From: Thermofilum sp.
GTDB lineage: Archaea > Thermoproteota > Thermoprotei > Thermofilales > Thermofilaceae
Length of the DNA stretch: 19,852 nucleotides
NCBI GenBank assembly: GCA_020832965.1
Contig: JAJHRM010000017.1
Coordinates: 1-19,852, forward strand
Direction: 5' to 3'
The notes below the pieces were generated by a model, which was given only the letters and a program-made list of their open reading frames with translations, was not told the DNA's origin and searched no databases. Numbering within the stretch: position 1 is the stretch's first letter; each line of letters opens with the position of its first letter. Positions 3,205 through 17,832 of the stretch are shown piece by piece. The position numbers and the translations under genes are program-made.

Positions 3205-4023
3205 TTAGCCGCGCCTCCTCTCCTCAATGTACTTCCACAAGTCCTCGAAGCTGGATCGCGGGGGCTCCCTGGGGACGCCGATGGGTATGATGTACATTGG
3301 CACCTCCTCGCGCCCAGCACTAATAGCGGCTTGCACCATGTCATCGTGGAAGGCACCTACAACGACTGCCCCGTAGCCGAGGGCAGTGGCCATCAGGTAC
3401 ACGTTTTGACCGAGGTGTCCGACCTCCATGGGCACGTACCTCACCCTTCCCCTCTCGCCGTACCGCGAGGTCGTCCTCCCGAAGACAGCGCAGACTACTA
3501 GGTCTACTGGAGCCTCTTCGACCCACTCTTGGCCGAGGGCTGCCGCGGCAAGCTCCCTCCTTAAGTCGCCGGGCTTTACAAGGCTGAGTAAGTGCCTGTA
3601 CTCGTCATACTTGTACACGCCCGCTCGCAGGTAACCCCCGCCCTCCAGCAGGACGCGCCCCTCCCCAACGACCACGTAGACCTTCAGGGGGTACGTTGCG
3701 CCAGCGCTCGGGGACGCTTTGAGGCCCCACTTCGGCTCCGTCACACCGCAGGCGGCCCACAGCATCATGGCTAGGTGCTCCAGCCTGACGGGGTCTTTGG
3801 TGTACTCGCGAATGCTTCTCCTGCGTAGCACCGCCTCCTCGACACTTACATTGGTGATTTTCCTGGGCAGCGGGAGGTAAACTACTTCGTCGCCAGCCGC
3901 TGCCTGACTGGGAGCATTTTCCCCGCGCTCTACCCGAAAAACACGCCACAACACATACAAAGCCGCAAGGGCTACCAAGACCAGTATCAGCAACGCATGC
4001 ACATGGCTGCTGCTGGCAACCAC
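3205..4023 (-). CDS. SagB-type nitroreductase-fold FMN protein with N-terminal membrane anchor
   Basis: This 272-residue protein has one N-terminal membrane segment (residues 9-28) followed by a nitroreductase fold. Family motifs in order are LRRRSIREY (66-74, FMN phosphate/ribityl contact), the alanine-rich KASPSAGATYPL (102-113), AALGQEWVEEAPVDLV (161-176), RYGERGRVRYVPMEVGHLGQN (187-207) and YGAVVVGAFHDD (217-228). These match the SagB-type dehydrogenase subgroup, whose characterised members oxidise azolines in peptide natural products. No precursor peptide or cyclodehydratase is visible beside it, so that role is not supported here and a general flavin oxidoreductase is equally possible. 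The GTG start at 4023 has GGTGAG about 5 bases upstream and a TATA box near 4060. It is transcribed divergently from the ATPase gene. Confidence 0.88.
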   Translation of the reverse strand: MVASSSHVHALLILVLVALAALYVLWRVFRVERGENAPSQAAAGDEVVYLPLPRKITNVSVEEAVLRRRSIREYTKDPVRLEHLAMMLWAACGVTEPKWGLKASPSAGATYPLKVYVVVGEGRVLLEGGGYLRAGVYKYDEYRHLLSLVKPGDLRRELAAAALGQEWVEEAPVDLVVCAVFGRTTSRYGERGRVRYVPMEVGHLGQNVYLMATALGYGAVVVGAFHDDMVQAAISAGREEVPMYIIPIGVPREPPRSSFEDLWKYIEERRRG

Positions 4024-4169: not shown

Positions 4170-5568
4170 GATTTGGAGTATGATATTCGTCGATAGAGAG
4201 GAGGAATTAAGAGTGCTACGTGAAGCTTTGAGTAGCGCTAGGGCTGAGCTAGTCCTCCTTTATGGTAGGAGGAGGATTGGTAAGACCTTCCTCGTATCAA
4301 GGCTGCTGAGGGAGGTGGATGGAATCTACCTGTGTGTTAACCACGAGGAAAGGGATCTCGCTTTAAGGGACCTTGTAGAGCAGTTTCTTTCTCAGGTATC
4401 GTTGCCCGTTAAGCCAAGCGTTTCAAGCTTTAGGGAACTTTTCAAGCTACTCGCTATTTCGGGCAGGAGGCTCATCGTGATTGACGAGTTTCAGAGGCTT
4501 TTAAGGGCGGGGGGAATTACGGAGCTCCAGCATCTCTGGGACCTGGAGTTATCCAGGAGCGGCACGGTTCTCGTTCTCTCCGGCTCTGCCGTTGGGGTGG
4601 CGGAGCGGATCGGGCTTTCCCATGCATCCCCCCTCTTCGGCAGGTTTACGAGGGTTATTCGGCTCGAGGAGTTTAGCTACAGCGTTGCTAGGGCGTTTAC
4701 ACCCAGCTACAGCGAGGAGGACAAGGTGAGGACCTACAGCGTTTTCGGTGGTGTGCCCGGGTACCTTTCCCTGCTTAAGCCTACGAAAAACTTGCTGGAG
4801 AACATTACGAGCCTTGTCCTCGGTCCCGGTGCACCGCTCAGGGAGGAGCCCTTAACGGCTCTGAGGCTCGAGCTGAGGAATCCTTCGAGGTACATCGAAG
4901 TGCTGAGGGCTGTGGCCATGGGTGCTACCCAATTCGGAGAGATAGCTGACAAAGCAGGCTTGAGGGTGACTGAACTGCCAAAATATTTGAGGATCCTCGA
5001 GGAGGATCTGCGCCTTGTAGAGCGCAGGTACCCGCTGCTGGAGGAGGGGTCTCGCCGGAGAGCCAGGTACTATGTGCGGGACCACTTCACAAGCTTCTGG
5101 TTCAACGCTGTCTACCCGAACAGGCCCCTTCTGGAGCTAGGCATGTACAGAGAAGTCGCCGGGAGAGTGCCGGAGGTGGTTGAGAGGCTTGCATCAGCGG
5201 TCTTCGAGAAGGTTGCCATGGAGCACTTTGCTACCCTAGCTAAGAGTGGTGAAGTATCCTTCACGAGGATGGGGAAGTGGTGGAGCGGCGAGACTGAGAT
5301 AGACTTCATTGCCATCGACGAGAAATCGAATACAGCGTACTTCGCAGAGGTAAAATGGACCAACGAGAGGGTCCACAGGAAAGTTTTGTACAGGCTTATG
5401 GAGAAAGCAGCCGAGTTTCCATGGAGAGAGAAGGACAGGAAAGAGGTCTACGTAGTATACAGCAGGAGCGGCTTCACATTCGAGCCGGAGGAAGGCCTGC
5501 GGCTCTACACGTTGGCGGATCTCCGAGAGGCATTTGAAAAGGTAAAACCCCAGGTCACTGAGCTCTAG
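4168..5568 (+). CDS. Archaeal STAND/MNS-clade ATPase with C-terminal DUF234 nuclease-like domain
   Basis: This 466-residue protein has an N-terminal P-loop ATPase domain. The Walker A motif is GRRRIGKT (33-40), Walker B is RLIVIDEF (101-108), a sensor-like LVLSGS lies at 136-140, and PLFGRF at 155-160 is typical of the archaeal ATPase_2 family. A winged-helix-like region spans about 245-290. The C-terminal DUF234 part contains YYVRDHFTSFWF (301-312) and a PD-(D/E)xK-like core: EIDF at 377-380 and AEVKW at 393-397. Such proteins are common, often multicopy, in archaea. Their task is not established; defence or mobile-DNA roles have been suggested because of the nuclease-like domain. The first ATG (4168) fits a leaderless transcript, although MIFVDREEEL from 4180 resembles the usual family start. 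It ends tail-to-tail with oppF, sharing the bases CTAG. Confidence 0.88.
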   Translation: MIWSMIFVDREEELRVLREALSSARAELVLLYGRRRIGKTFLVSRLLREVDGIYLCVNHEERDLALRDLVEQFLSQVSLPVKPSVSSFRELFKLLAISGRRLIVIDEFQRLLRAGGITELQHLWDLELSRSGTVLVLSGSAVGVAERIGLSHASPLFGRFTRVIRLEEFSYSVARAFTPSYSEEDKVRTYSVFGGVPGYLSLLKPTKNLLENITSLVLGPGAPLREEPLTALRLELRNPSRYIEVLRAVAMGATQFGEIADKAGLRVTELPKYLRILEEDLRLVERRYPLLEEGSRRRARYYVRDHFTSFWFNAVYPNRPLLELGMYREVAGRVPEVVERLASAVFEKVAMEHFATLAKSGEVSFTRMGKWWSGETEIDFIAIDEKSNTAYFAEVKWTNERVHRKVLYRLMEKAAEFPWREKDRKEVYVVYSRSGFTFEPEEGLRLYTLADLREAFEKVKPQVTEL

Positions 5569-6527
5569 GCTTTCCCATGCAGCCAGCAGGCAACGGGGTG
5601 CCCCGGCTCGGCTTCTAGTAGCGGCGGCTCAGCTATCCTGCATTTTTCTGTGGCGAAGGGGCATCTTGGGTGGAACCTGCATCCCCTTGGTATATTTATG
5701 GGAGAGGGTGGCTCTCCCTGTATGGCTAGCCTCCTGCGCGTCTTGGCGTACTTCGGGTCCGGTACTGGAATTGAGCTTAGCAGGAACTTGGTGTATGGGT
5801 GCAGCGGGTTTTCGAATATGCGGTCTGACTGTGCAATCTCGACGATTTTGCCGAGGTACATCACTCCTATTCTGTGGCTCATGTACTTTACAACCCCGAT
5901 GTCATGGGATATGAAGAGGTAGGATATTTTCCTTTTTTCCTGTACGTCCTTAAGCATGTTCAGTATCGCGGCCTGAACAGAGACGTCCAGGGACGAGGTA
6001 GGCTCGTCCAGGACTATAAATCTTGGGTTTAGTGTTAGTGCCCTTAATATTGCCACTCTCTGTTTTTGACCACCGCTGAGCTCGTGGGGGTACCTGTACA
6101 GGTGCTCCTTTCCGAGCCCAACGCTTTCCAGCTGCCCGACTATGTACCCCTCCGGGTCTCCAACCGGGATGTTGTGCTCGAAGAGCGGCTCGGAGAGTAT
6201 CTCGAAGATCGTCATTCTCGGGTTTAGGGATGTGTTTGGGTCTTGGAAGACTATCTGCGCGCTTCTCCTGAACCGCTTCAGCTCCTCCCCCTTAAGCGAG
6301 AGAACGTCCTTGCCGTTGAAGAATATTTTCCCAGAGGTGGGCTCAAGCAGCCGTATAACGACTCTTCCAAGGGTGGATTTCCCACAACCACTCTCACCCA
6401 CGAGCCCGAAGGTCTCGCCCTGCTCGATAGCGAAGTTTACGCCGTCAACAGCTTTCACCGCCTTGAACAGGGATCCCCTGACCTTGAAGTACTTCTTCAC
6501 GTTTTCAACCCTAACGAGCTCAGGCAT
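5565..6527 (-). CDS. oppF: Peptide/oligosaccharide ABC transporter ATP-binding protein OppF/DppF
   Basis: This is one of two nucleotide-binding subunits that power import through OppB/OppC. From the ATG at 6527 (MPELVRVENV) it is 320 residues. Motifs are Walker A GESGCGKS (44-51), the Q-loop Gln95, signature LSGGQKQR (150-157), Walker B IVLDEP (171-176) and the switch His208. The C-terminal oligopeptide/dipeptide domain carries four cysteines (283, 289, 296, 314) with the same spacing as in OppD, a set that can hold an iron-sulfur cluster in some homologues. The open frame extends 41 codons further upstream into oppD, but the chosen ATG has GGTGAGG just before it and lies 5 bases after the oppD stop. 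It is last in the operon and ends convergently with the ATPase gene. Confidence 0.95.
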   Translation of the reverse strand: MPELVRVENVKKYFKVRGSLFKAVKAVDGVNFAIEQGETFGLVGESGCGKSTLGRVVIRLLEPTSGKIFFNGKDVLSLKGEELKRFRRSAQIVFQDPNTSLNPRMTIFEILSEPLFEHNIPVGDPEGYIVGQLESVGLGKEHLYRYPHELSGGQKQRVAILRALTLNPRFIVLDEPTSSLDVSVQAAILNMLKDVQEKRKISYLFISHDIGVVKYMSHRIGVMYLGKIVEIAQSDRIFENPLHPYTKFLLSSIPVPDPKYAKTRRRLAIQGEPPSPINIPRGCRFHPRCPFATEKCRIAEPPLLEAEPGHPVACWLHGKA

Positions 6528-6532
6528 CCCCC

Positions 6533-7534
6533 TCACCCCTTCACGAGTAGCCAGCAGTGAACGAGGTGATTGTTCCCGAGGTCTACTCGTGGCGGGTTTT
6601 GGCTTCTGCAGATATCCCTCACGAGTGGGCACCTCGGAGCGAAGGGGCACCCAGGCTTCATATCGATCAAGTTCGGCACAGTGCCGGGTATTGATTCAAG
6701 CTTCTCTATCCTCTTAAGCGGGTTGGGGACGGCCCTCAAAAGCAGCTGAGTGTAGGGGTGCATAGGCGACTCGAAGATCGTGTATATGTCTGCTGTTTCA
6801 GCTATTCTTCCACCATACATCACGTACACTCTCTCAGCGGTCTCGGCGACCACTCCCAGGTTGTGCGTAATGAGCAGTAGGCTCATCCTGTACTTCTCCT
6901 TCAACTCTCTGAGGAGGTCGAGGATCTGCGCCTGGACAGTAACGTCCAGGTTCGTTGTGGGTTCGTCAGCGATCAGGAGCCGTGGCTTGTTAGCAATAGC
7001 AGTGGCGATGACAACTCTCTGCCTCATCCCTCCACTGAGCTCGTGCGGGTAGTTCTTTATCCTCACCTCCGGGTTTGGGATCAAGACGTCCCTTAGTAGC
7101 TGCAGCGCCTCCGCAGACGCGTCTCTGGAGGAGACTGCCCTATGCTCGGTGATCGTCTCAACTATGTGGTCCCCAGCCGTGTAGAGGGGGTCGAGGGCGC
7201 TCGAGGGGTCCTGAAAGATGTAGGAGATCTCGTTGCCCCTTATTTCCCTTATTTCCTCAGGGGGTAGCCTGATAAGGTCCACGACCGCTCCGCTCCTCCT
7301 CCTGAATAAAACTCTTCCCGACTCTATCCTGCCTGGAGGGTCTATGAGTCCGGTAATTGCCTTTGTGAAGACGGTCTTGCCGCAGCCGGTCTCGCCCACG
7401 AGTGCAATGCTCTCCCCCTCAAAGACGTCTAAGTAGGCTTCTGAAACAGCGTGGACAACGCCCGCATAGGTGTAGAACCTGACGGTCAAGTCTCTAACTG
7501 CCAGTACCTGGTTGCCGGGCATGCTGTCGCTCAT
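6533..7534 (-). CDS. oppD: Peptide/oligosaccharide ABC transporter ATP-binding protein OppD/DppD
   Basis: This 333-residue ATPase is the partner of OppF on the inner face of the membrane. Motifs are Walker A GETGCGKT (47-54), Q-loop Gln108, signature LSGGMRQR (166-173), Walker B LLIADEP (186-192) and switch His224. The C-terminal domain has cysteines 296, 302, 309 and 327, with spacing identical to OppF. The ATG at 7534 overlaps the oppC stop as ATGA, which fixes the start and implies coupling; MPGNQ four codons later is a less likely start. Residues 19-68 are 45/50 identical to a broken fragment at 15915-16067 in this same window. Confidence 0.96.
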   Translation of the reverse strand: MSDSMPGNQVLAVRDLTVRFYTYAGVVHAVSEAYLDVFEGESIALVGETGCGKTVFTKAITGLIDPPGRIESGRVLFRRRSGAVVDLIRLPPEEIREIRGNEISYIFQDPSSALDPLYTAGDHIVETITEHRAVSSRDASAEALQLLRDVLIPNPEVRIKNYPHELSGGMRQRVVIATAIANKPRLLIADEPTTNLDVTVQAQILDLLRELKEKYRMSLLLITHNLGVVAETAERVYVMYGGRIAETADIYTIFESPMHPYTQLLLRAVPNPLKRIEKLESIPGTVPNLIDMKPGCPFAPRCPLVRDICRSQNPPRVDLGNNHLVHCWLLVKG

Positions 7535-8637
7535 TTCCTCACCTCTATTTTCGCCCTTAACTCTATGGAGCGCCTAGTTCTCGGGTCGAAAACGTCTCGG
7601 AGAGCGTCCCCGACGAGGTTCCAGCCCAGCGATATGAGGAGCAGCGCTGTTCCGGCTTCCACCACTATCCACCAGCTCCTCTCTGGGAAGAACTGCCCAG
7701 CCTGTGAAATTATTAGCCCCAGGTCGGGTACGGGTGGCTGAGGGCCAAGGCCGAGGAAGGATAGGGCAGCTGAACTCAGAGTCGCAGTTGCAAAGTCGAA
7801 CGTCACCATCACTAGCAGCGGGGACAAGATGTTGGGGAGGATGTGTCTCAGGAGTATTTTCCACGATGAAAGACCAAGCGCCTTAGCAGCCTCAACGAAC
7901 CCCTGCTCTTTCGCGGAGAGCACCGACCCCCTAACGACTCTAGCGTAGGGAGGCCACCAGACGAGTATGAGTGCCAGGAAAACTGAGAGGAGGTTTGCAA
8001 GGTTGGGGGCGTCCTTTGGATTTAGCGCGAAGAGAGAGGCGACGACGCCCGTCGCTGCGGGGTTCGCCATTAAGTAGTCTCTTAGGGATAGCCTGAGCGT
8101 CAAGCTGAATGCTATAGCTAGAACTAGCCCTGGGAATGCGAGCATCATGTCAGTAAACCTCATCAACACTTCATCCACTACGCCTCCGAAGTACCCCGAG
8201 ATCAGCCCGATCAGTATGCCAATAACAGAACTCGTTAGAACGATTATCAGGCTCATTACTAGTGAGATTCTAAACCCCCTGGTGACTAGGCTTAAAACGT
8301 CTCTGCCGTAGTGGTCCGTGCCGAAGGCTGGGAGACCCCCGCAGCTCCCATAGCACGGCGGGTGGGGTAGCTTTCCAGCTAGTTCTGGCCTCTGCAGTAT
8401 TGGGTAGACGTCGTAAGGCTCCCAAGCAATTAAGGGTCCGAAAAGCGCCAGGAACAACGTGACGAGGACAAGCACAAGTCCCGTGAGACCTATAAGTGAC
8501 GAAGTGAAGACGTAGAGGGAGAGCTTTGTTTCGACAAGCTTCGACCTGTTCTTCTCGAGCCAGCCAGGACTGATCCTTTCCCGCAGCCCTGCATATCTGT
8601 CAACGATCCAGCTTCCAAGCCTATAGAAGGGGTTCAT
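7531..8637 (-). CDS. oppC: Peptide/oligosaccharide ABC transporter permease OppC/DppC
   Basis: This 368-residue membrane protein forms half of the translocation pore. A cytosolic N-terminus of about 40 residues precedes the first membrane span (about 45-70). The extracytoplasmic loop includes HPPCYGSCGG (two cysteines that could form a disulfide) and the family motif FGTDHYGRDVLS (105-116). Further spans lie at about 123-149, 163-183, 215-233, 272-296 and 325-345. The EAA loop that docks with the ATPases is VEAAKALGLSSWKILLRHIL (248-267), followed by PNILSPL. The C-terminus DVFDPR is typical of OppC. It starts 12 bases after oppB and overlaps oppD by ATGA. Confidence 0.95.
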   Translation of the reverse strand: MNPFYRLGSWIVDRYAGLRERISPGWLEKNRSKLVETKLSLYVFTSSLIGLTGLVLVLVTLFLALFGPLIAWEPYDVYPILQRPELAGKLPHPPCYGSCGGLPAFGTDHYGRDVLSLVTRGFRISLVMSLIIVLTSSVIGILIGLISGYFGGVVDEVLMRFTDMMLAFPGLVLAIAFSLTLRLSLRDYLMANPAATGVVASLFALNPKDAPNLANLLSVFLALILVWWPPYARVVRGSVLSAKEQGFVEAAKALGLSSWKILLRHILPNILSPLLVMVTFDFATATLSSAALSFLGLGPQPPVPDLGLIISQAGQFFPERSWWIVVEAGTALLLISLGWNLVGDALRDVFDPRTRRSIELRAKIEVRK

Positions 8638-8649
8638 TCACTCTACCAC

Positions 8650-9708
8650 CTAGTATCTCACCCTTGGATCGATCAATGCGTAGACCAGGTCAACGATCAG
8701 GTTCATGACGATGTATATTATTGAGAAGAGGAATGTACCAGCAATGATTATCGGGAAGTTGAGCCTCGTTATCCCCTGATACATGTAGAGACCCATCCCG
8801 GGAATGTTAAAAACTGTTTCAGCTATTATTGCCCCCGTGAGAAGCCCTGCAAAATTTAGCCCGAGGATAGTCACTATGGGGGCGAACGCGTTCTTCAATG
8901 CGTGACGCCACACTCTTTGACTTGTTAAGCCTCTCGCCCTCGCAAACAGTATGGAGTCGGAACTCAAGGCGTCCAGCAAGCTGTTCCTAACAATCCTCGC
9001 TATAAACCCGCCGGAAAGAAGACCTAGGGCTAAGCCGGGAAGCCACATCCTAATGAAGGTATCACCTAAAACGTTGAATTCCCCACACATTGGCCCGCCG
9101 AAGATCGGAACCTGGCCAACAGCCCAAACGAGGTAGCCCAGCAGCGGTACCGAGTCCCTTATTGAGTCGAGATGCGCCATGCAGGAGGGAGAGTAGGAGG
9201 GGACGCCCGCCATGAGTGACGCCCTTATGTAGACGTAGAATGCGAGGATGAGGAAGTAGTATAGGACAAATGCGGGCATGGAGCTTCCAAACAGGGCGAA
9301 TACCCTCACAAAGAAGTCTATCGCGCTATCCTTCTTCGCTGCTGCGATTATCCCCAGAGGGATACCTATAGCAACCGTAAACAGCATCCCGAAAATTGCT
9401 AATTCAACTGTAACTGGGAACCTCTGCGCCACCTGCAGAACAACCGGGGTCCCTCTAACCGGATCTATGAGCGTGCCGCTCATCAGCTTCTGAACAAGAA
9501 AAGCGAACTGCTCGTACCAAGGTGCATCAAACCTGTACTCTTTTCTCAATCTGTCGAGCGTGGAAGGATCCATCAGTTTTTCTCCAACCCACGCTCTCAC
9601 AGGGTCTGTCGGTATCACGTAGGCGATTAGGTAAGTAATTAGCAATGCACCTATAACACTGGGCAAGAAAGTCAGCAACCTCCTTACAAGATAACTGCCC
9701 AGTCCCAT
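8650..9708 (-). CDS. oppB: Peptide/oligosaccharide ABC transporter permease OppB/DppB
   Basis: This 352-residue membrane protein is the OppC partner. It begins MGLGSYLVRRLLTFLPSVIG, the usual OppB first helix, then has the large external loop with RLRKEYRFDAPWYEQF (53-68). Family marks further on are RFPVTVELAIFGM (96-108), the EAA loop RARGLTSQRVWRHALKNA (257-274), IIAETVFNIPGMGLY (294-308) and the C-terminus YALIDPRVRY. AGGTGA lies 7 bases before the ATG at 9708. It follows the binding-protein gene after a 42-base T-rich spacer, the only sizeable gap in the operon. Confidence 0.96.
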   Translation of the reverse strand: MGLGSYLVRRLLTFLPSVIGALLITYLIAYVIPTDPVRAWVGEKLMDPSTLDRLRKEYRFDAPWYEQFAFLVQKLMSGTLIDPVRGTPVVLQVAQRFPVTVELAIFGMLFTVAIGIPLGIIAAAKKDSAIDFFVRVFALFGSSMPAFVLYYFLILAFYVYIRASLMAGVPSYSPSCMAHLDSIRDSVPLLGYLVWAVGQVPIFGGPMCGEFNVLGDTFIRMWLPGLALGLLSGGFIARIVRNSLLDALSSDSILFARARGLTSQRVWRHALKNAFAPIVTILGLNFAGLLTGAIIAETVFNIPGMGLYMYQGITRLNFPIIIAGTFLFSIIYIVMNLIVDLVYALIDPRVRY

Positions 9709-9750: not shown

Positions 9751-11898
9751 TTAGGGTTTAAAGCCGTAGAGTTGCTGCCACAGGGTCGCGTTCCAGTAGT
9801 ATGGGTTGTACTTTAGGAGGATGTAGCTGTCCTCCTTGTAGTCTGCGACGTAGTATGGTCCTGTCGAGACGGGCTTCGTGGAGAGGAGCTTAAAGGTTGC
9901 GTCCTCCTCGCCTACGCCGACGTACTTTGCCCACGCAGCCGGGTTCCTGCCGTTGTTCGAGTCAGCCAGAGCTGCCTGGTACTTGTCTCCCAGAGCGTAC
10001 TGCATCGGGATTACTGAGCCAACACCCGTAACGAATATCTGGAGGATTGGGACGTATGGGTAGCGTAGCTTAAACTTCACTACACCGGCTGTTGGCCCGG
10101 TGTACTTGAAGAAGCTTAAAAGCTCACTCAAGCTGTGAATTTCCGCAGACTTGCCGAGGTAGAAGGTAACTAGCCCACTTGTCTTAGCAATGCTGTCTAG
10201 CTCGTCCTCGGTCAGTACGCTTGAAGCATTAACATCAATATAGCTGTCAATCATCCACTGGGGTCCGCCGGGCAGGTTTAGCCTAACAGCGCGCCACACG
10301 CTAAACAAGGCATCAACAGCTGTTACTGGGTAGGTCTTGTTGCTCCAGGGGTCATATGCTTTAACGTTGCCCCTCATAACGAAGTATAGGTCTGTCAGGT
10401 CCCTGCTGAACGCCCAAGCAGCACTAAGCTCAGGAATGGGCTCCGTATCCTCCTTCCACATTGTGACAAGCCTCCCATACACGTGCCAGAATATCTCCCA
10501 GCCAAAGCTCTCATAGGACTTAGCGGGGTCAAACGTGTCTGGCCACCCAATATCACCTATAACCATCGTCTCAGGGCTGTTCTTTATGCCGGCTACACCT
10601 GTATCAACGACGGGGGCCTTCGGATCCTCCCAGACTAGGTCATACCTGGCAAACGTTGCAAGCGGATAGTACATGTCGTGGACCCATGAGCCATAGTTCT
10701 CACCTGTCATTAACTGTCCTAGCATGAGTAGGGTTGCCTGCTTGTTAAAGTAGATCGTTGCTGCCTGAAGAACCGCCTCCCTAACCGTTGGGTCTACGAT
10801 CCTCTGTGCAGCCTTGCACAGAGCGCTCAGAGCAACATCTTTCAGCCCCCCAGTACCCAGTGTAACCATGTTTACTGGCTCCTCCCAGTTGCTCTTTGTC
10901 TTATCCCAATCTACCTCGTACCCCACGGTTACTATCGGCTTGTTTGCCGGACCGGTATACTTTGCCCCCGTCCCTTTCTCCCCAGCAACAACTATGAACT
11001 TCTCTGTTTCAACGGTCATGTTTACGTTTGCGAGGTATTTTCCAACGTCGCCCGGAGCAACATTGCTGTTGACCTCTATGGACTTAAATTCTGCTCCACC
11101 CCAAACAAAAGGCATCAGGTAGTCGTCTGGGTCGAAGTAGTCAGGGATCCACCCCAAGAGCATGACCTGGTACTGGAAGTGGTCAACGAGGTCTAAATAC
11201 TTGGGCCACGAGTAGGATTCGACCGTGACTCTGAACCCTAGCTGGCTCCAGGACTGCTGTAGGAGAGTGGATATCTGCTGCCGGGCAGTGTTCCCCTCGT
11301 TGAAGATTATTGTGATGACGTACTTGCTTGGGTCGAAACCCTTGGCCTTCAGCTGGGAAATTATTTGCTGCGCCTTAGACATATCATACTCATACTTGTT
11401 TATCCCGAACTCTGTGTAACCAGGCATCCCCCTTGGAATAATCGTGTATAGCCTGGTGTAGAGTCCGCCGAAAACTTGCTTCAATATGACGTCATAAGGT
11501 ACAGCGTAAGCTAGAGCCTGTCTGACCTCTGGAATGTTGAAAGGCTCCTTCATGGGGTTAAGTCCAACGTATTGAATCGTGAGCTGAGGCTTGTCTGGTC
11601 TCCGCACAAGGTGCAGTGTGAAGTTGCCTACAGGGGTGTTGTTCACGTCAGGCCATCGGGCAGGAGTCACAACAGCAATATCGAAGACGCCAGTCTTGTA
11701 CATGTTTATCCTCGTCCCCTCATCATTAACAATAATGTAGAGAATTTGCTTGTGGAAAGGCCTCGCCTGAACGGCTGGACCAGTTGGCGCCGGTCCTCTT
11801 AGGAGGAGTGCGAACGCTACTATTATTATGAGTATGACCGCTATAATGACACCATACAACGCGCTCTTGCTGATCCCTTTTTTCTTGGCCTCTTGCAC
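9751..11898 (-). CDS. oppA: Family 5 substrate-binding protein of the opp-type ABC transporter, circularly permuted domain order
   Basis: This 715-residue protein captures substrate outside the cell for OppBCDF. An uncleaved-looking hydrophobic anchor covers residues 14-33 and there is no lipobox cysteine. Residues about 48-440 correspond to the normal C-terminal half of family 5 proteins: YKTGVFDIAVV (67-77), VGLNPMKEPFNIPEVRQALA (111-130), LGWIPDYFDPDDYLMPF (248-264). Residues about 443-700 correspond to the normal N-terminal half: MVIGDIGWPDTFDPAKSYES (445-464), PIPELSAAWAFSRDLTDLYF (487-506), PVSTGPYYVADY (676-687), LLKYNPYYWN (694-703). In ordinary relatives the 'NPxYW' segment comes immediately before the segment that starts this protein, so the order is rotated. 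The frame is continuous and the gene heads an intact operon. The GTG start at 11898 lies 26 bases from a TATA box and is probably leaderless. Substrate could be peptides or oligosaccharides. Confidence 0.92.
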   Translation of the reverse strand: MQEAKKKGISKSALYGVIIAVILIIIVAFALLLRGPAPTGPAVQARPFHKQILYIIVNDEGTRINMYKTGVFDIAVVTPARWPDVNNTPVGNFTLHLVRRPDKPQLTIQYVGLNPMKEPFNIPEVRQALAYAVPYDVILKQVFGGLYTRLYTIIPRGMPGYTEFGINKYEYDMSKAQQIISQLKAKGFDPSKYVITIIFNEGNTARQQISTLLQQSWSQLGFRVTVESYSWPKYLDLVDHFQYQVMLLGWIPDYFDPDDYLMPFVWGGAEFKSIEVNSNVAPGDVGKYLANVNMTVETEKFIVVAGEKGTGAKYTGPANKPIVTVGYEVDWDKTKSNWEEPVNMVTLGTGGLKDVALSALCKAAQRIVDPTVREAVLQAATIYFNKQATLLMLGQLMTGENYGSWVHDMYYPLATFARYDLVWEDPKAPVVDTGVAGIKNSPETMVIGDIGWPDTFDPAKSYESFGWEIFWHVYGRLVTMWKEDTEPIPELSAAWAFSRDLTDLYFVMRGNVKAYDPWSNKTYPVTAVDALFSVWRAVRLNLPGGPQWMIDSYIDVNASSVLTEDELDSIAKTSGLVTFYLGKSAEIHSLSELLSFFKYTGPTAGVVKFKLRYPYVPILQIFVTGVGSVIPMQYALGDKYQAALADSNNGRNPAAWAKYVGVGEEDATFKLLSTKPVSTGPYYVADYKEDSYILLKYNPYYWNATLWQQLYGFKP

Positions 11899-12397: not shown

Positions 12398-13015
12398 GTG
12401 GCCCCTCTTTACCTTGTGTACTACATATTTGTGTCTGAGAAACTGCTGAACAAAGTCAGGGATCACAGAAAGGCGTGGTTCCCAGGCATTCTTTACCTGG
12501 GCAAGGGCGACTCAAGGCATGTCTACCTGTTTGACTGCGTTATATCCGGTAGGCTGAATGACAAGAGTCTGAGCCTCCTCCTTTCGAGGCGCCTAGGAGC
12601 AGAACACCTGAAATCGTCAGAAGTGCTCCCCTACAATTTCCCAGTCCTCTCAAGCGAACACTGTGCGGGGGACATTTTAAGTGACTTGCTGGAGTCAAGA
12701 AAAGGTCCCGCTGAGCCGCCTACGTCCCCGCTATTCGACCAGGCAGACTATTTCGCCGTTAGGCTTCTCGGTGTTAGGGGTGCGATGAGGAGGATGGAGG
12801 GATGCTTCAGGGAAGCTGTCCGGAGGCGGAGTGGCGTATCGCTGCTGCTTGAAGAGCTGTCTGCAAGAGAACTTTGCTACGCTGGAGTCGCCTACCAGCT
12901 GGTTACGTGTAAGGATTCAAAGGTCTTTTACGCAGTTGGAGAGAAGCTAGAGAGGGCAATGCTCCTCGAAAAGTACCTGGCTTCAAGTCAGCTGCTCACC
13001 GAGTTTTTCAAATGA
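12398..13015 (+). CDS. Uncharacterised protein with a C-terminal region resembling KEOPS subunit Cgi121
   Basis: Up to 205 residues. Residues 1-115 are unrecognised. From about 119 to the end the order of motifs resembles Cgi121, the tRNA-binding accessory subunit of the KEOPS tRNA threonylcarbamoyl complex: LLGVRGAMRRMEGCF (compare GIRGARI in the M. jannaschii protein), then VSLLLEELSA, then LERAMLLEKYLASSQLLTEF in place of the EIL...SG.RQI.EA helix. The spacing also fits, but the characteristic SG.RQI is not present and the protein stops at that helix. This is a by-eye comparison, so treat the function as unproven. The start is uncertain: GTG codons at 12398, 12416 and 12431 are possible, and 12416 best fits leaderless transcription from CTTTAACTATATG (12386-12398). 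Its codon use looks native. Confidence 0.7.
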   Translation: MAPLYLVYYIFVSEKLLNKVRDHRKAWFPGILYLGKGDSRHVYLFDCVISGRLNDKSLSLLLSRRLGAEHLKSSEVLPYNFPVLSSEHCAGDILSDLLESRKGPAEPPTSPLFDQADYFAVRLLGVRGAMRRMEGCFREAVRRRSGVSLLLEELSARELCYAGVAYQLVTCKDSKVFYAVGEKLERAMLLEKYLASSQLLTEFFK

Positions 13016-13057: not shown

Positions 13058-13504
13058 TCATGTCCTCTTGGCGTCGAGGCTTTTAAGGTGCTCGATGTTC
13101 TCCCTTTCTGATGGGTCCGGCTCCTCTACTGAGAACCACTCGTCGAGTATCTCTTTCGCTACCTCCTCTGATAGCAGCCTTGCGCTAAGCGCCAGTACGT
13201 TGGCATCGTTCCAAAGCCTCGCGCCTCTAGCGTTCTTTGCATCTGTGCATAGCGCTGCTCTTATTCCCTTTACCTTGTTGGCCGCTATGCTTACACCTGT
13301 CCCCGTATAGCACATAACTATGCCTGTGTCAGCCTTACCAGATGCTACTAGCTGTGCGACTTCCTGCCCGACCCTTGGCCATGGATACGGCTTGCCTGTC
13401 AGCGCCGAGCCGACCAGGATTACTTCGTGCCCCCTCTTTTTCAGCTCCTGAATGATGAAGGCTACAATAGAGTAGTTGTCGTCGGAGCCAAAAGCTACCC
13501 TCAT
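13058..13504 (-). CDS. RpiB/LacA/LacB-family sugar-phosphate isomerase with altered active-site histidines
   Basis: The protein has 149 residues counted from a GTG at 13507, or 148 from the ATG at 13504, which fits the leaderless promoter better. It has the RpiB fold signature: VAFGSDD near the N-terminus, then ADTGIVMCYTGTGVSIAANK (59-78) with the catalytic Cys66, GIRAALCTD (81-89) and NDANVLALSAR (100-110). Two residues that act in RpiB differ. The His after GCD is Asp10, and the ring-opening His of 'HNDxNVL' is Trp99. RpiB isomerises ribose 5-phosphate and ribulose 5-phosphate; relatives act on other aldose phosphates. These changes make a different substrate or a changed mechanism likely. 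Its neighbour upstream is a phosphohexomutase, 61 bases away, with a separate TATA box between. Confidence 0.85.
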   Translation of the reverse strand: MRVAFGSDDNYSIVAFIIQELKKRGHEVILVGSALTGKPYPWPRVGQEVAQLVASGKADTGIVMCYTGTGVSIAANKVKGIRAALCTDAKNARGARLWNDANVLALSARLLSEEVAKEILDEWFSVEEPDPSERENIEHLKSLDAKRT

Positions 13505-13527
13505 CACTTAGAAGTATAGCTTTCCCC

Positions 13528-13535
13528 ATTTATAG
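13528..13535 (-). promoter_or_regulatory. TATA box of the RpiB-family gene
   Basis: The minus strand reads AAAGGCTATAAATG, with the box CTATAAAT centred 27 bases before the ATG at 13504 and a BRE-like AAAGG in front. It predicts a leaderless message separate from the upstream phosphomutase transcript. Confidence 0.6.
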
Positions 13536-13565
13536 CCTTTACTCTGAAGCTAATGACTACGTTTT

Positions 13566-14966
13566 CTAGCCGATTGTTTTCTCTACTATTCTTCCTCCAA
13601 GCTTCTTCGTGAGCTCGAATATCTTTGCCTCCACACTTGAAACTATTTCTCGCAGTCTCTCATTGGTTTTAGCCTCCGAGTAAATCCTAAGCTTTGGCTC
13701 TGTCCCGCTCCTCCTCACAAGCACCCAAGACTCGTCTGGGTACTCGTACCTAAAACCATCTATGTCTATAATCCTTGAAGGCTCGCCCAGCAGGCCTTTA
13801 AGCTCTTCTACCAGCTCTTGGTAAAGCTTGTCTCTTATCTCCATAGGTTCCAGGATATAGCTTCTCCTGTCCCACGGATAGTCTGGGATATTTTCTTCCT
13901 CAAGTATCCTTGAGAGAGGCTTCCCGGTTTCGACCATGCTCCTTAATATTATTGCTACCTGTAGCAGGCCATCGACCCAGGGTCCCCAGGAGGGGAGGAT
14001 GAGCTTCCAAGGCTCGCATGCAACTGCAACATTGCCAAGCCCAAGCTCCTTTACGCGTTCATGGGTCTTTCCAAGAGCATATCTCTCCAGCCTCCCGCCA
14101 TGCCTCTCTACGACCTCGTCTAGAGCCCTTCCAGTATCGATGCTCGCTATGACGATGCCAGACTTGTCCCTGAGCACCAAGTGCGCATAGTAGGCTAGTA
14201 GCCTGTCCAGCTTTATGTATCCACTCTTCGAGTCAAGAACCGCAAGCCTGTCTCCATCCCCGTCATGCGCCAGCACAAGTGAAGCATCTACAACGCTGGC
14301 AATCCTCGAGTACTGTTCAAGCACGTCTTTCCTAGGCTCAGGCAAACGGGCCGGGAAATGCCCGTCAGGGTTACAGTTCAGGGTAACGGGTCTCGCACCT
14401 AGCATCCGTGCTATTCGAGGCGAGACGTCAAAGGTAGCACCGTTCGCACAGTCGATAATTACTATGGGTCTCCAGGTTGTCCTTGACGGAGCAAACCTTT
14501 CTAAAAGCTGTGCAACGTATTCCTCGACGACTAAGCTGTCACGGGAAAACCTCCCGACTTCTTGCCAGGAAACAGGCCTAAAGCTTTCATCAAGTAAGAG
14601 CTCGATTTTCTCCTCGAGATCCCGCGTTGACTCAAAGCCGTCAGGCGTGTATAGCTTAAAGCCATTATATTCGGGAGGATTATGGCTAGCAGTTACACTT
14701 ATGCCTAGGCTTTTCCTCCTAAACGCGGCGAAGCCTGCTATAGGTGTAGGGGCGAGCCCTACCTCGTACACGTCCATCCTGGTTGCCTGCATCCCGACTG
14801 CTAACGCATACATGACTAGCTGGCTCGTAGTTCTAGAATCGTAGACGATATGGCTCGTCCTAGAAACGCCTAGATTGCCCAAGACGAGCCCCACGCGGTA
14901 AAGCAAGATCGGGTCTAGCTCGTCGGGGAACCTTAGCCGGACACCGGCTGTCCCAAATATCCTCAC
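13566..14966 (-). CDS. Phosphohexomutase (phosphoglucomutase/phosphomannomutase/GlmM family)
   Basis: This 466-residue alpha-D-phosphohexomutase moves phosphate between C1 and C6 of hexose phosphates. It begins MRIFGTAGVR as usual. The phosphoserine loop is TASHNPPEYNG (92-102, Ser94), the Mg site DGDGDR (235-240) and the phosphate-binding loop RRSGTEPKLR (418-427). The sugar-specificity loop, usually GGE.SGH or GEENGG, reads ACEPWKLILPSWGPWVDGL (316-334); only the Glu is kept, so the substrate among glucose, mannose and glucosamine phosphates cannot be named. The start is GTG (14966); a nearby ATG at 14973 is out of frame. It is upstream of the RpiB-family gene in the same direction. Confidence 0.93.
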   Translation of the reverse strand: MRIFGTAGVRLRFPDELDPILLYRVGLVLGNLGVSRTSHIVYDSRTTSQLVMYALAVGMQATRMDVYEVGLAPTPIAGFAAFRRKSLGISVTASHNPPEYNGFKLYTPDGFESTRDLEEKIELLLDESFRPVSWQEVGRFSRDSLVVEEYVAQLLERFAPSRTTWRPIVIIDCANGATFDVSPRIARMLGARPVTLNCNPDGHFPARLPEPRKDVLEQYSRIASVVDASLVLAHDGDGDRLAVLDSKSGYIKLDRLLAYYAHLVLRDKSGIVIASIDTGRALDEVVERHGGRLERYALGKTHERVKELGLGNVAVACEPWKLILPSWGPWVDGLLQVAIILRSMVETGKPLSRILEEENIPDYPWDRRSYILEPMEIRDKLYQELVEELKGLLGEPSRIIDIDGFRYEYPDESWVLVRRSGTEPKLRIYSEAKTNERLREIVSSVEAKIFELTKKLGGRIVEKTIG

Positions 14967-15080: not shown

Positions 15081-15500
15081 CTACGATTCTTTAGGGGAGA
15101 GGCTTTTGGGCCATACTCTTTTTATCCAGGCGACCTTGTCGAAGTCCTTATCCTCAGAGACTATTAGAGTTGCTCCTGCCTTCTCCATAGTGGCTATGTG
15201 AAAAGCATCAGAAGGCTTAAAGCCGTAATTGACTAGGTATTTTTCCGCCGCATAGAGATCCTCAGCGTCAAGGGGGACAATCTCAACAAAGGGTAACACT
15301 ACACGCCTTAAGAACTCAAAAGTATCAGAGTAGGGTACGCCGTATCTCCGCGAGATATAAAGAGTCTCGTCCACCACAATCACGTTTAAGATAAGCTCCT
15401 CCTCGATCAGATTCCCCCAGAACTCTTCCAGTGGTTTTCTCCTCTCACCCCGCAACGTGTTTAAGTAGACAAGAAAGTTCGCATCAACGAAGGCTTTCAT
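15081..15500 (-). CDS. vapC: PIN-domain ribonuclease toxin VapC
   Basis: This is a 139-residue PIN-domain endoribonuclease, toxin of a type II pair. The four acidic metal-binding residues are present: Asp6 (MKAFVDANFLVY), Glu45 (VIVVDETLYISRRYG), Asp98 (FKPSDAFHIA) and Asp117 (VSEDKDFDKV). The start at 15500 (MKAFVD) is chosen over in-frame ATGs at 15509 and further upstream. GGAGG lies 9 bases before it but directly abuts the ATG at 15509, and PIN proteins usually start two or three residues before the first strand. It overlaps the end of vapB by 17 bases, indicating tight coupling. Confidence 0.9.
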   Translation of the reverse strand: MKAFVDANFLVYLNTLRGERRKPLEEFWGNLIEEELILNVIVVDETLYISRRYGVPYSDTFEFLRRVVLPFVEIVPLDAEDLYAAEKYLVNYGFKPSDAFHIATMEKAGATLIVSEDKDFDKVAWIKRVWPKSLSPKES

Positions 15501-15756
15501 TGTACTCATCCTCCATAGACAGTTTAGCAAGCTCTCCTGGCAACGGCTCCCTAGCCCCCAGTGCTCGCAACTTCTCTTCGTGTTGCTTTAGATACTCAAA
15601 TACCTCTTCCAGCGAAGGCCTGCCTCTGAGCAGTATCCCATCTGGTCTAAGCTCAATGGTTACAAAGCCACCCTCCTTGATGCCGTACCTTTCTCTAATT
15701 ATCTTCGGGATCAGCACCTGTCCTTTCGGCCCAACTTTTATCCTCAGTTCTACCAT
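15484..15756 (-). CDS. vapB: AbrB/SpoVT-type antitoxin VapB
   Basis: This 90-residue protein has an N-terminal swapped-hairpin DNA-binding domain: MVELRIKVGPKGQVLIPKII, then RERYGIKEGGFVTIELRPDG. The C-terminal acidic helical tail (SLEEVFEYLKQHEEKLRALG and onward) is expected to wrap the VapC active site. Such antitoxins neutralise the toxin and repress their own operon. The ATG at 15756 lies 27 bases from a TATA box, so the mRNA is probably leaderless. vapC follows with a 17-base overlap. Confidence 0.92.
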   Translation of the reverse strand: MVELRIKVGPKGQVLIPKIIRERYGIKEGGFVTIELRPDGILLRGRPSLEEVFEYLKQHEEKLRALGAREPLPGELAKLSMEDEYNESLR

Positions 15757-17254: not shown

Positions 17255-17809
17255 CTAGGGGACTATATGGTGTTCTCTGCATCTAGCCTCGTATGTTTCT
17301 GAGCCACCCACGAGGACTCTTGGGCTGTCTCTTGGTGCAGGCTTGCCGTTTATGAGCCTCTGGGTCCTCGTCGCGGGCTTTCCGCAGACCTTGCATACAG
17401 CTGTCAGGCTTACGACCTTGTCTGCGTAGGCTAGGAGCCTCATCGTCGTTTCGAATGGCTCACCCTTGAAGTCTAGGTTGAGCGCAGAAACTACTACCAT
17501 TTTCTCAGCGGCTAGCTTGTTGAGCTCGTCTGCAAGTATCGGTGGGAAGAACTGCCCCTCATCTATGCCTATAACGTCGTAGTTTGCGCTTTCACTAGTG
17601 ATCCTTCTTACCCCTTCTTCGTCCGGAGGGACGACCACGGCGTTTATCTTTAGCCCGTTGTGCGAGGTTACGCTTGCCGGATGGTACCTGGTGTCGATGC
17701 TCGGCTTATATATCACGACTCTCCTGCCGGCTATCATCTGCCTCTCGATGCGCCTGATTAGCTCGGTCGTCTTCCCTGAGAACATTGGGCCAGTAACTAC
17801 GACCAGCAT
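17255..17809 (-). CDS. tdk: Thymidine kinase (type II)
   Basis: This 184-residue enzyme phosphorylates thymidine to dTMP in nucleoside salvage, using ATP. It has the P-loop GPMFSGKT (7-14), RVVIYKPSIDTRY (30-42), SHNG (49-52) and the catalytic acid in GIDEGQFF (81-88, Glu84). The C-terminal zinc-binding lasso carries Cys139-x2-Cys142 and Cys177-x2-His180, with the thymidine-binding RVLVGGSETYEARC between. The start is the ATG at 17809, 27 bases from a TATA box, so leaderless; a TTG at 17818 would start upstream of the predicted mRNA start. It is a single-gene unit convergent with the toxin locus. Length and motifs are standard. Confidence 0.96.
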   Translation of the reverse strand: MLVVVTGPMFSGKTTELIRRIERQMIAGRRVVIYKPSIDTRYHPASVTSHNGLKINAVVVPPDEEGVRRITSESANYDVIGIDEGQFFPPILADELNKLAAEKMVVVSALNLDFKGEPFETTMRLLAYADKVVSLTAVCKVCGKPATRTQRLINGKPAPRDSPRVLVGGSETYEARCREHHIVP

Positions 17810-17832
17810 CAAAGTCAAGACTCTACGGGAAG

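Follow-up and report, generated by a model that had tools for sequence, protein, structure and literature searches.

A substrate-binding protein with its halves exchanged

The DNA analysed here, referred to at its full length as the window, is a stretch of 19,852 nucleotides from Thermofilum sp. (assembly GCA_020832965.1, contig JAJHRM010000017.1). It carries an unbroken open reading frame of 715 codons with a GTG start, followed on the same strand by DppB-, DppC-, DppD- and DppF-like transporter genes (Table 1). A first-pass annotation, made from the sequence alone, had proposed that this frame encodes a family 5 substrate-binding protein in which the canonical C-terminal half (C-half) precedes the canonical N-terminal half (N-half) through a clean circular permutation. 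Comparison with family profiles confirmed that the window protein (P0001) is a family 5 member of the DppA/OppA type (cluster C) with its halves swapped.

The protein matches PF00496 in two stretches with 184.4 bits, against a curated cut-off of 32.4, and the top stretch aligns residues 49-265 with profile positions 148-361, the second half of the profile. In a phmmer comparison with a solved dipeptide-binding protein (8z1y_F), residues 102-262 correspond to positions 286-445 (76 bits), while two individually weak matches place residues 442-536 on 28-124 (11 bits) and residues 667-703 on 198-234 (7 bits); along the window protein, the pieces of 8z1y_F thus run C-half, start of the N-half, end of the N-half. 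The decisive comparison was between profiles, in which a 79-row alignment (A1) was set against an ordinary-order profile of E. coli DppA and 33 archaeal proteins. Unrotated, A1 yielded two matches, DppA 239-533 (score 356) and then DppA 28-236 (score 210), and no alignment colinear over the whole protein. Rotated to place the N-half first, it gave a single match to DppA 28-533 over 488 columns (score 556, E 1.8e-71).

Because every part occurs once in the profile alignment, no half of the window protein is duplicated, and we reject a fusion of one half with a second copy of itself. The parts wrap once and the new ends abut in parent coordinates, the C-terminal residues 704/714 aligning with DppA 235/236 and residue 49 with DppA 239, which places them at the NPxYW loop as first proposed. 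DppA 533 is residue 423 and DppA 28 is residue 442, or window base 10575, the very position near which the old ends had been suggested to join. The linear order from N-half to C-half is reversed, and we therefore class the protein as a circularly permuted relative rather than an ordinary DppA.

Table 1. Features of the binding-protein gene and its operon, in window coordinates.
Feature	Position	Strand	Basis
Circularly permuted family 5 substrate-binding protein, 715 residues, order C1-C2-N	9751-11898	-	PF00496, profile alignment, model
N-terminal hydrophobic helix, residues ~11-33, presumed anchor	11800-11868	-	helix 11-32 in model; hydrophobicity census
C1: first part of canonical C-half, residues 48-276; D253 = DppA D436	11071-11757	-	profile alignment, residue mapping
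C2: canonical C-terminal end, residues 277-432; DppA 458-533 = residues 348-423	10603-11070	-	profile alignment, mapping
Joint, residues 424-441, linker from old C-terminus to old N-terminus	10576-10629	-	profile alignment, mapping
N: canonical N-half, residues 442-703 = DppA 28 to ~235	9790-10575	-	profile alignment, mapping
New C-terminal tail, residues 704-715, ends LYGFKP; flank of the opened loop that follows NPYYW	9754-9789	-	alignment, mapping
DppB-like permease	8650-9708	-	NCBIfam
DppC-like permease	7531-8637	-	NCBIfam
DppD-like ATPase	6533-7534	-	NCBIfam
DppF-like ATPase	5565-6650	-	NCBIfam

The window family is permuted throughout, as sampled

Relatives were sorted by cutting the query protein into the three parts C1, C2 and N, and by examining the 120 matches listed of 140 together with the query. 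The window order, C1-C2-N, is found in 91 of these 121 sequences (query included), C2-N-C1 in 29, and the remaining one is a fragment. The closest named relatives of the window protein are from Infirmifilum, Thermofilaceae and Thermofilum sp. NZ13, and the sequences with its order include entries named in their source as Desulfurococcus amylolyticus (with a longest contig of 1,384,116 bases), Pyrobaculum ferrireducens (2,467,972 bases) and Pyrobaculum aerophilum. The 29 relatives had been candidates for the canonical order, a reading rejected by the three-part sorting, which reveals a second rotation: the same circle opened elsewhere. We refer to the window order as type A, and to C2-N-C1, opened at DppA ~450-460, as type B. 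Type B relatives from Thermococcus and Pyrodictium (e.g. P0089 and P0114) belong to the window family with 30-58% identity by segment, and share with the window protein the joint of the old ends, whose sequence, judged by eye, is alike in both types; they differ from it in their opening and order.

Family-specific segment models assigned 177 sequences, locus and protein duplicates included, to type A (124), type B (51) and a further type C (2, being one locus counted twice). None of the 177 has the ordinary order; every sampled member of the window family is therefore permuted, at one of three opening points. A family tree of 97 rows with ordinary outgroups requires at least four changes among types A, B and C. 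Forcing its 25 type B rows into a single clade costs 296 log units and is rejected (approximately unbiased test, p-AU 3e-67). In a more careful tree of 27 rows, type A branches first, type B arises twice, once in the Thermococci and once within the Pyrodictium group, and type C arises a single time.

Locus L068 of Thermofilum sp. NZ13, together with its preceding stretch (G001, contig C1, 13416-15113), holds a C-half-first gene whose match contains one in-frame TAG; a 492-residue end piece is also present in another source (P0145).

Predicted fold, ligand residue and anchor

The window protein resembles E. coli DppA and OppA (PF00496) in its predicted fold, its complement of parts, its ligand aspartate and the order in which DppB-, C-, D- and F-type genes accompany it. 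Unlike them, it is opened after the NPxYW loop, has its old ends joined and bears an N-terminal helix; it also has extra segments, with 715 residues compared with 535 in DppA, and an insert of some 70-80 residues relative to DppA precedes the equivalent of DppA 458-533 within C2. Modelled as a single chain, it reaches a mean predicted local distance difference test score (pLDDT) of 93.6, with the old ends bridged by ~18 residues. Structural alignment matched the C-half to the DppA fold over residues 44-427; the N-half was matched to that fold by structural alignment in a type B relative, while in the window protein it was located by profile alignment. The DppA ligand aspartate D436 is conserved as D253.

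The N-terminal helix is preceded by KKG, which we take to be a class III-like signal motif. The first-pass annotation had further suggested that the permutation moves the membrane anchor to a new lobe, which our analysis does not support. Domain I of DppA presumably comprises mature residues 1-260 and 479-507, and the new N-terminus of the window protein lies at DppA 236-239 (mature ~208-211). On these boundaries, both the old and the new ends of type A lie in the N-terminal lobe, while types B and C would place the tether on the C-terminal lobe; a switch of lobe therefore fits the relatives opened at ~370-389 and 450-460, and not the window protein itself.

Permuted lineages outside the window family

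A DppA-anchored model was run on the frames of fetched loci, and a junction was recorded as the last and first aligned DppA positions. Where both ends were detected, they abut or nearly so: 234-238 to 235-242 in type A, 448-458 to 448-467 in type B, 367-373 to 373-389 in type C, 265-269 to 293-299 in type D and 83 to 88-89 in type E. Twelve loci cut at contig ends or with an undetected last piece, which give wider gaps, were set aside (L007, L017, L034, L038, L047, L068, L072, L073, L179, L181, L182 and L186). Outside the window family, further lineages open near DppA 85, 270-300 and 370-389; type E, first seen at a contig start, was borne out inside a contig of a second genome.

PF00496 matches are present in 134 of 150 drawn Thermoproteota genomes. 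A frame census of a first batch of 36 of these archaeal genomes covered 72 frames. A frame was scored as ordinary where model matches kept their order across 330 positions or more; by this rule, a type B frame with an undetected C2 part would count as ordinary. This gave 33 ordinary frames, 12 permuted with both halves (7 A, 3 C, 1 D and 1 B), 21 divergent frames with the C-half first, and 6 unclear or cut. At least one permuted or C-half-first frame was found in 28 of the 36 genomes and neither in 8. The divergent group, examined as 62 sequences exclusive of window-family rows, matches strongly over the C-half (scores 222-226); its N-half follows in the right order with weak scores (50-62 and 40-42), and the group is for that reason likely, rather than proven, to be permuted.

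Wider searches, one started from an A3 protein and one from a D protein, gave 213 listed matches (93 and 120 respectively, the latter of 387). Under the same rule 57 of these count as permuted, 34 from the first search and 23 from the second, and some of the 57 are cut or marginal. Openings near DppA 370 occur among these in entries named Methanomassiliicoccales (P0271, P0305 and P0314). Four others (P0170, P0181, P0196 and P0185) have bacterial-looking lipoprotein or signal starts and open near DppA 129-147 or 300, which suggests that permuted family 5 proteins may be present in bacteria too.

A superfamily tree of 87 rows, built from merged domain alignments with the divergent group left out, separates the permuted lineages (the window family, A3, the C2 lineage, D and E) and places them among ordinary proteins, with five changes between permuted and ordinary order and nine between opening types. 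The trees, those of the window family included, were made quickly and their deep branches are long and weak, so that the counts of changes serve as a guide. Placing the 40 permuted rows in a single clade, and with it a single origin for them, is rejected (p-AU 0.0002; type E and the divergent group stood outside the test).

Close pairs that differ by rotation

Ordinary-order relatives of permuted proteins exist, both among the census frames and as close sisters of types D and E, at ~70-74% identity. In type E (L233 and L232), ~60 residues of the old N-terminus stand at the end of the chain, compared with the start in the ordinary sisters L234, L235 and L236. Identity between type E and its ordinary sisters is 68-75% over the moved part; L233 is 73-74% identical to L234 and L236 over the long part and 68-71% over the moved part. 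The alignment with L235 runs longer, linker included, at 61%, and another ordinary relative, L238, stands at 51% and 57-59%. For the type D protein P0216 and five ordinary-order relatives, identity is 65-71% in one part and, apart from a single value of 54%, 62-72% in the second; the values are 71% and 72% with P0223, and 67% and 54% with P0230. Within the Thermococci, P0083, of order A, is 74-76% and 70-78% identical over its two parts to four order-B proteins. The type E proteins L233 and L232 begin with what we take to be a twin-arginine-like motif, lacking in their ordinary sisters, and the export route may have changed together with the rotation.

The operon and other genes of the window

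As the first-pass annotation had noted, four transporter genes follow the binding-protein gene; their best NCBIfam matches, each a single model, all fall under those models' curated cut-offs. DppB and DppC are the next detected same-strand genes in 34 of 49 related loci; the operon faces away in 4 and lies upstream in 1. Four loci have operon genes and no classified binding protein (L003, L017, L025 and L027), and L050 has neither.

Elsewhere on the reverse strand of the window lie a TrkA- and TrkH-like potassium uptake pair (665-2842), a nitroreductase-family protein (3205-4023), a LacAB/RpiB isomerase adjoining a phosphoglucomutase/phosphomannomutase (13058-14966), a PIN domain (15081-15530) and a thymidine kinase (17255-17818). 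A 205-residue frame on the forward strand (12398-13015), divergent from the binding-protein gene, has no Pfam match.

Discussion

Taken together, we consider it highly probable (roughly 0.93) that the window protein is an authentic and functional cluster C protein with a circular permutation, a flytrap-type importer receptor that arose by a rotation followed by re-opening within its family. Its likely function, already proposed in the first-pass annotation, and its role as a tethered importer receptor we infer from the intact frame, its conservation and the operon. The chain enters the fold at the loop that follows NPxYW and proceeds through the canonical C-terminal half, an 18-residue linker between the old ends and the canonical N-terminal half; the N-terminal helix would tether the protein. 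Peptides, or another oligomer, would be captured by the usual flytrap closure and passed to the DppB/C/D/F importer encoded alongside. Most simply, an ordinary gene would have undergone in-frame tandem duplication with subsequent loss of the outer parts, and the joined circle would later have been re-opened at other loops in the window family, at least twice to give type B and once to give type C.

Several observations weigh against parts of this account. The structural aligner spanned just the first half of the window protein, and the second DppA ligand residue, R383, aligns to a gap, so that the substrate need not be a dipeptide. A binding protein without any DppB-F gene in the stretch occurs in 5 of the 49 loci (L016, L034, L039, L045 and L047), in L039 despite ~9 kb after the gene. 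Type C in the window family is represented by the single locus L048, from a metagenome bin, and for the type A pair of the Thermococci a return from B to A is insecure (p-AU 0.06). Among a few long frames looked at, no double-length intermediate turned up. One candidate precursor of this kind, a 2059-residue frame (L116, 5941-12120, forward strand), was rejected as a different multi-domain fusion, in which an ordinary-order SBP_bac_5 domain is followed by CBM96, redoxin/AhpC-TSA, a PQQ_2 propeller and a papain-like peptidase.

Fission and fusion, by which the rotated gene would have been assembled from two half genes of different ordinary genes, would give an identical final order, and N-terminal starts have been exchanged in at least one case, the twin-arginine-like start that we presume for type E. 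Nevertheless, in most pairs (types E and D, and the Thermococci A/B pairs) the two parts are about equally close to the same sister proteins, which a mosaic would explain less well than the rotation of a single gene, and we regard fission and fusion as unlikely. It is still less probable that the protein forms a domain-swapped dimer, in which each N-half is completed by the C-half of a partner chain and the rotation alters quaternary structure as well as topology; our models were of monomers only, but the single chain gives a confident model and a joint of ~18 residues fits pairing within one chain. An assembly or gene-calling artefact is scarcely credible given the window order in 91 of 121 sequences, some on megabase contigs, and the operon that follows at 34 of the 49 loci. 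A decayed, non-functional copy, in favour of which we found nothing, is equally implausible for an intact frame whose 79-row alignment has 68 invariant columns and whose operon is kept.

To our knowledge, natural circular permutations have mostly been described as single old events. In the open-licence literature, the only natural permuted ATP-binding cassette (ABC) binding protein that we recognised is MglB-2 (Tp0684) of Treponema pallidum, a glucose-binding protein presented in excerpts of its paper as 'Type Ic / Cluster Bc' (PMC4990184). Those excerpts describe one rotation of a cluster B sugar-binding fold, whereas here a cluster C fold has several openings and repeated changes; in them, the authors suspect a link between permutation and membrane tethering, and raise a possibility similar to fission and fusion for the permuted part (PMC4990184).

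Homologues sharing the window order, which the first-pass annotation had proposed to seek, prove abundant. Going beyond that annotation, sequence comparisons and trees indicate that the rotation is widespread, that relatives are opened at several other points, and that the opening has changed repeatedly. Openings were noted overall near DppA 85, 130-147, 236, 270-300, 370-389 and 450-460, and shifts are seen even between proteins ~65-78% identical. It is probable that family 5 binding proteins evolve as a ring which nearly every surface loop may serve to open, and that in archaea, as well as probably in some bacteria, the opening has moved many times, with re-siting of the anchor relative to the two lobes as a candidate driver.

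The finding has consequences for annotation. Profile searches report permuted proteins as double or partial matches, some are named 'hypothetical protein' or 'DNA-binding protein' in their sources, and alignments that assume one part order will be wrong. More broadly, one family, mostly in one recurring operon, offers several opening points, repeated changes on the tree and closely related pairs set apart mainly by rotation. This makes testable the DNA-level route of permutation, the loops that tolerate it, selection on the folding path or on the position of the anchor, and the docking on the permease of a receptor tethered elsewhere.
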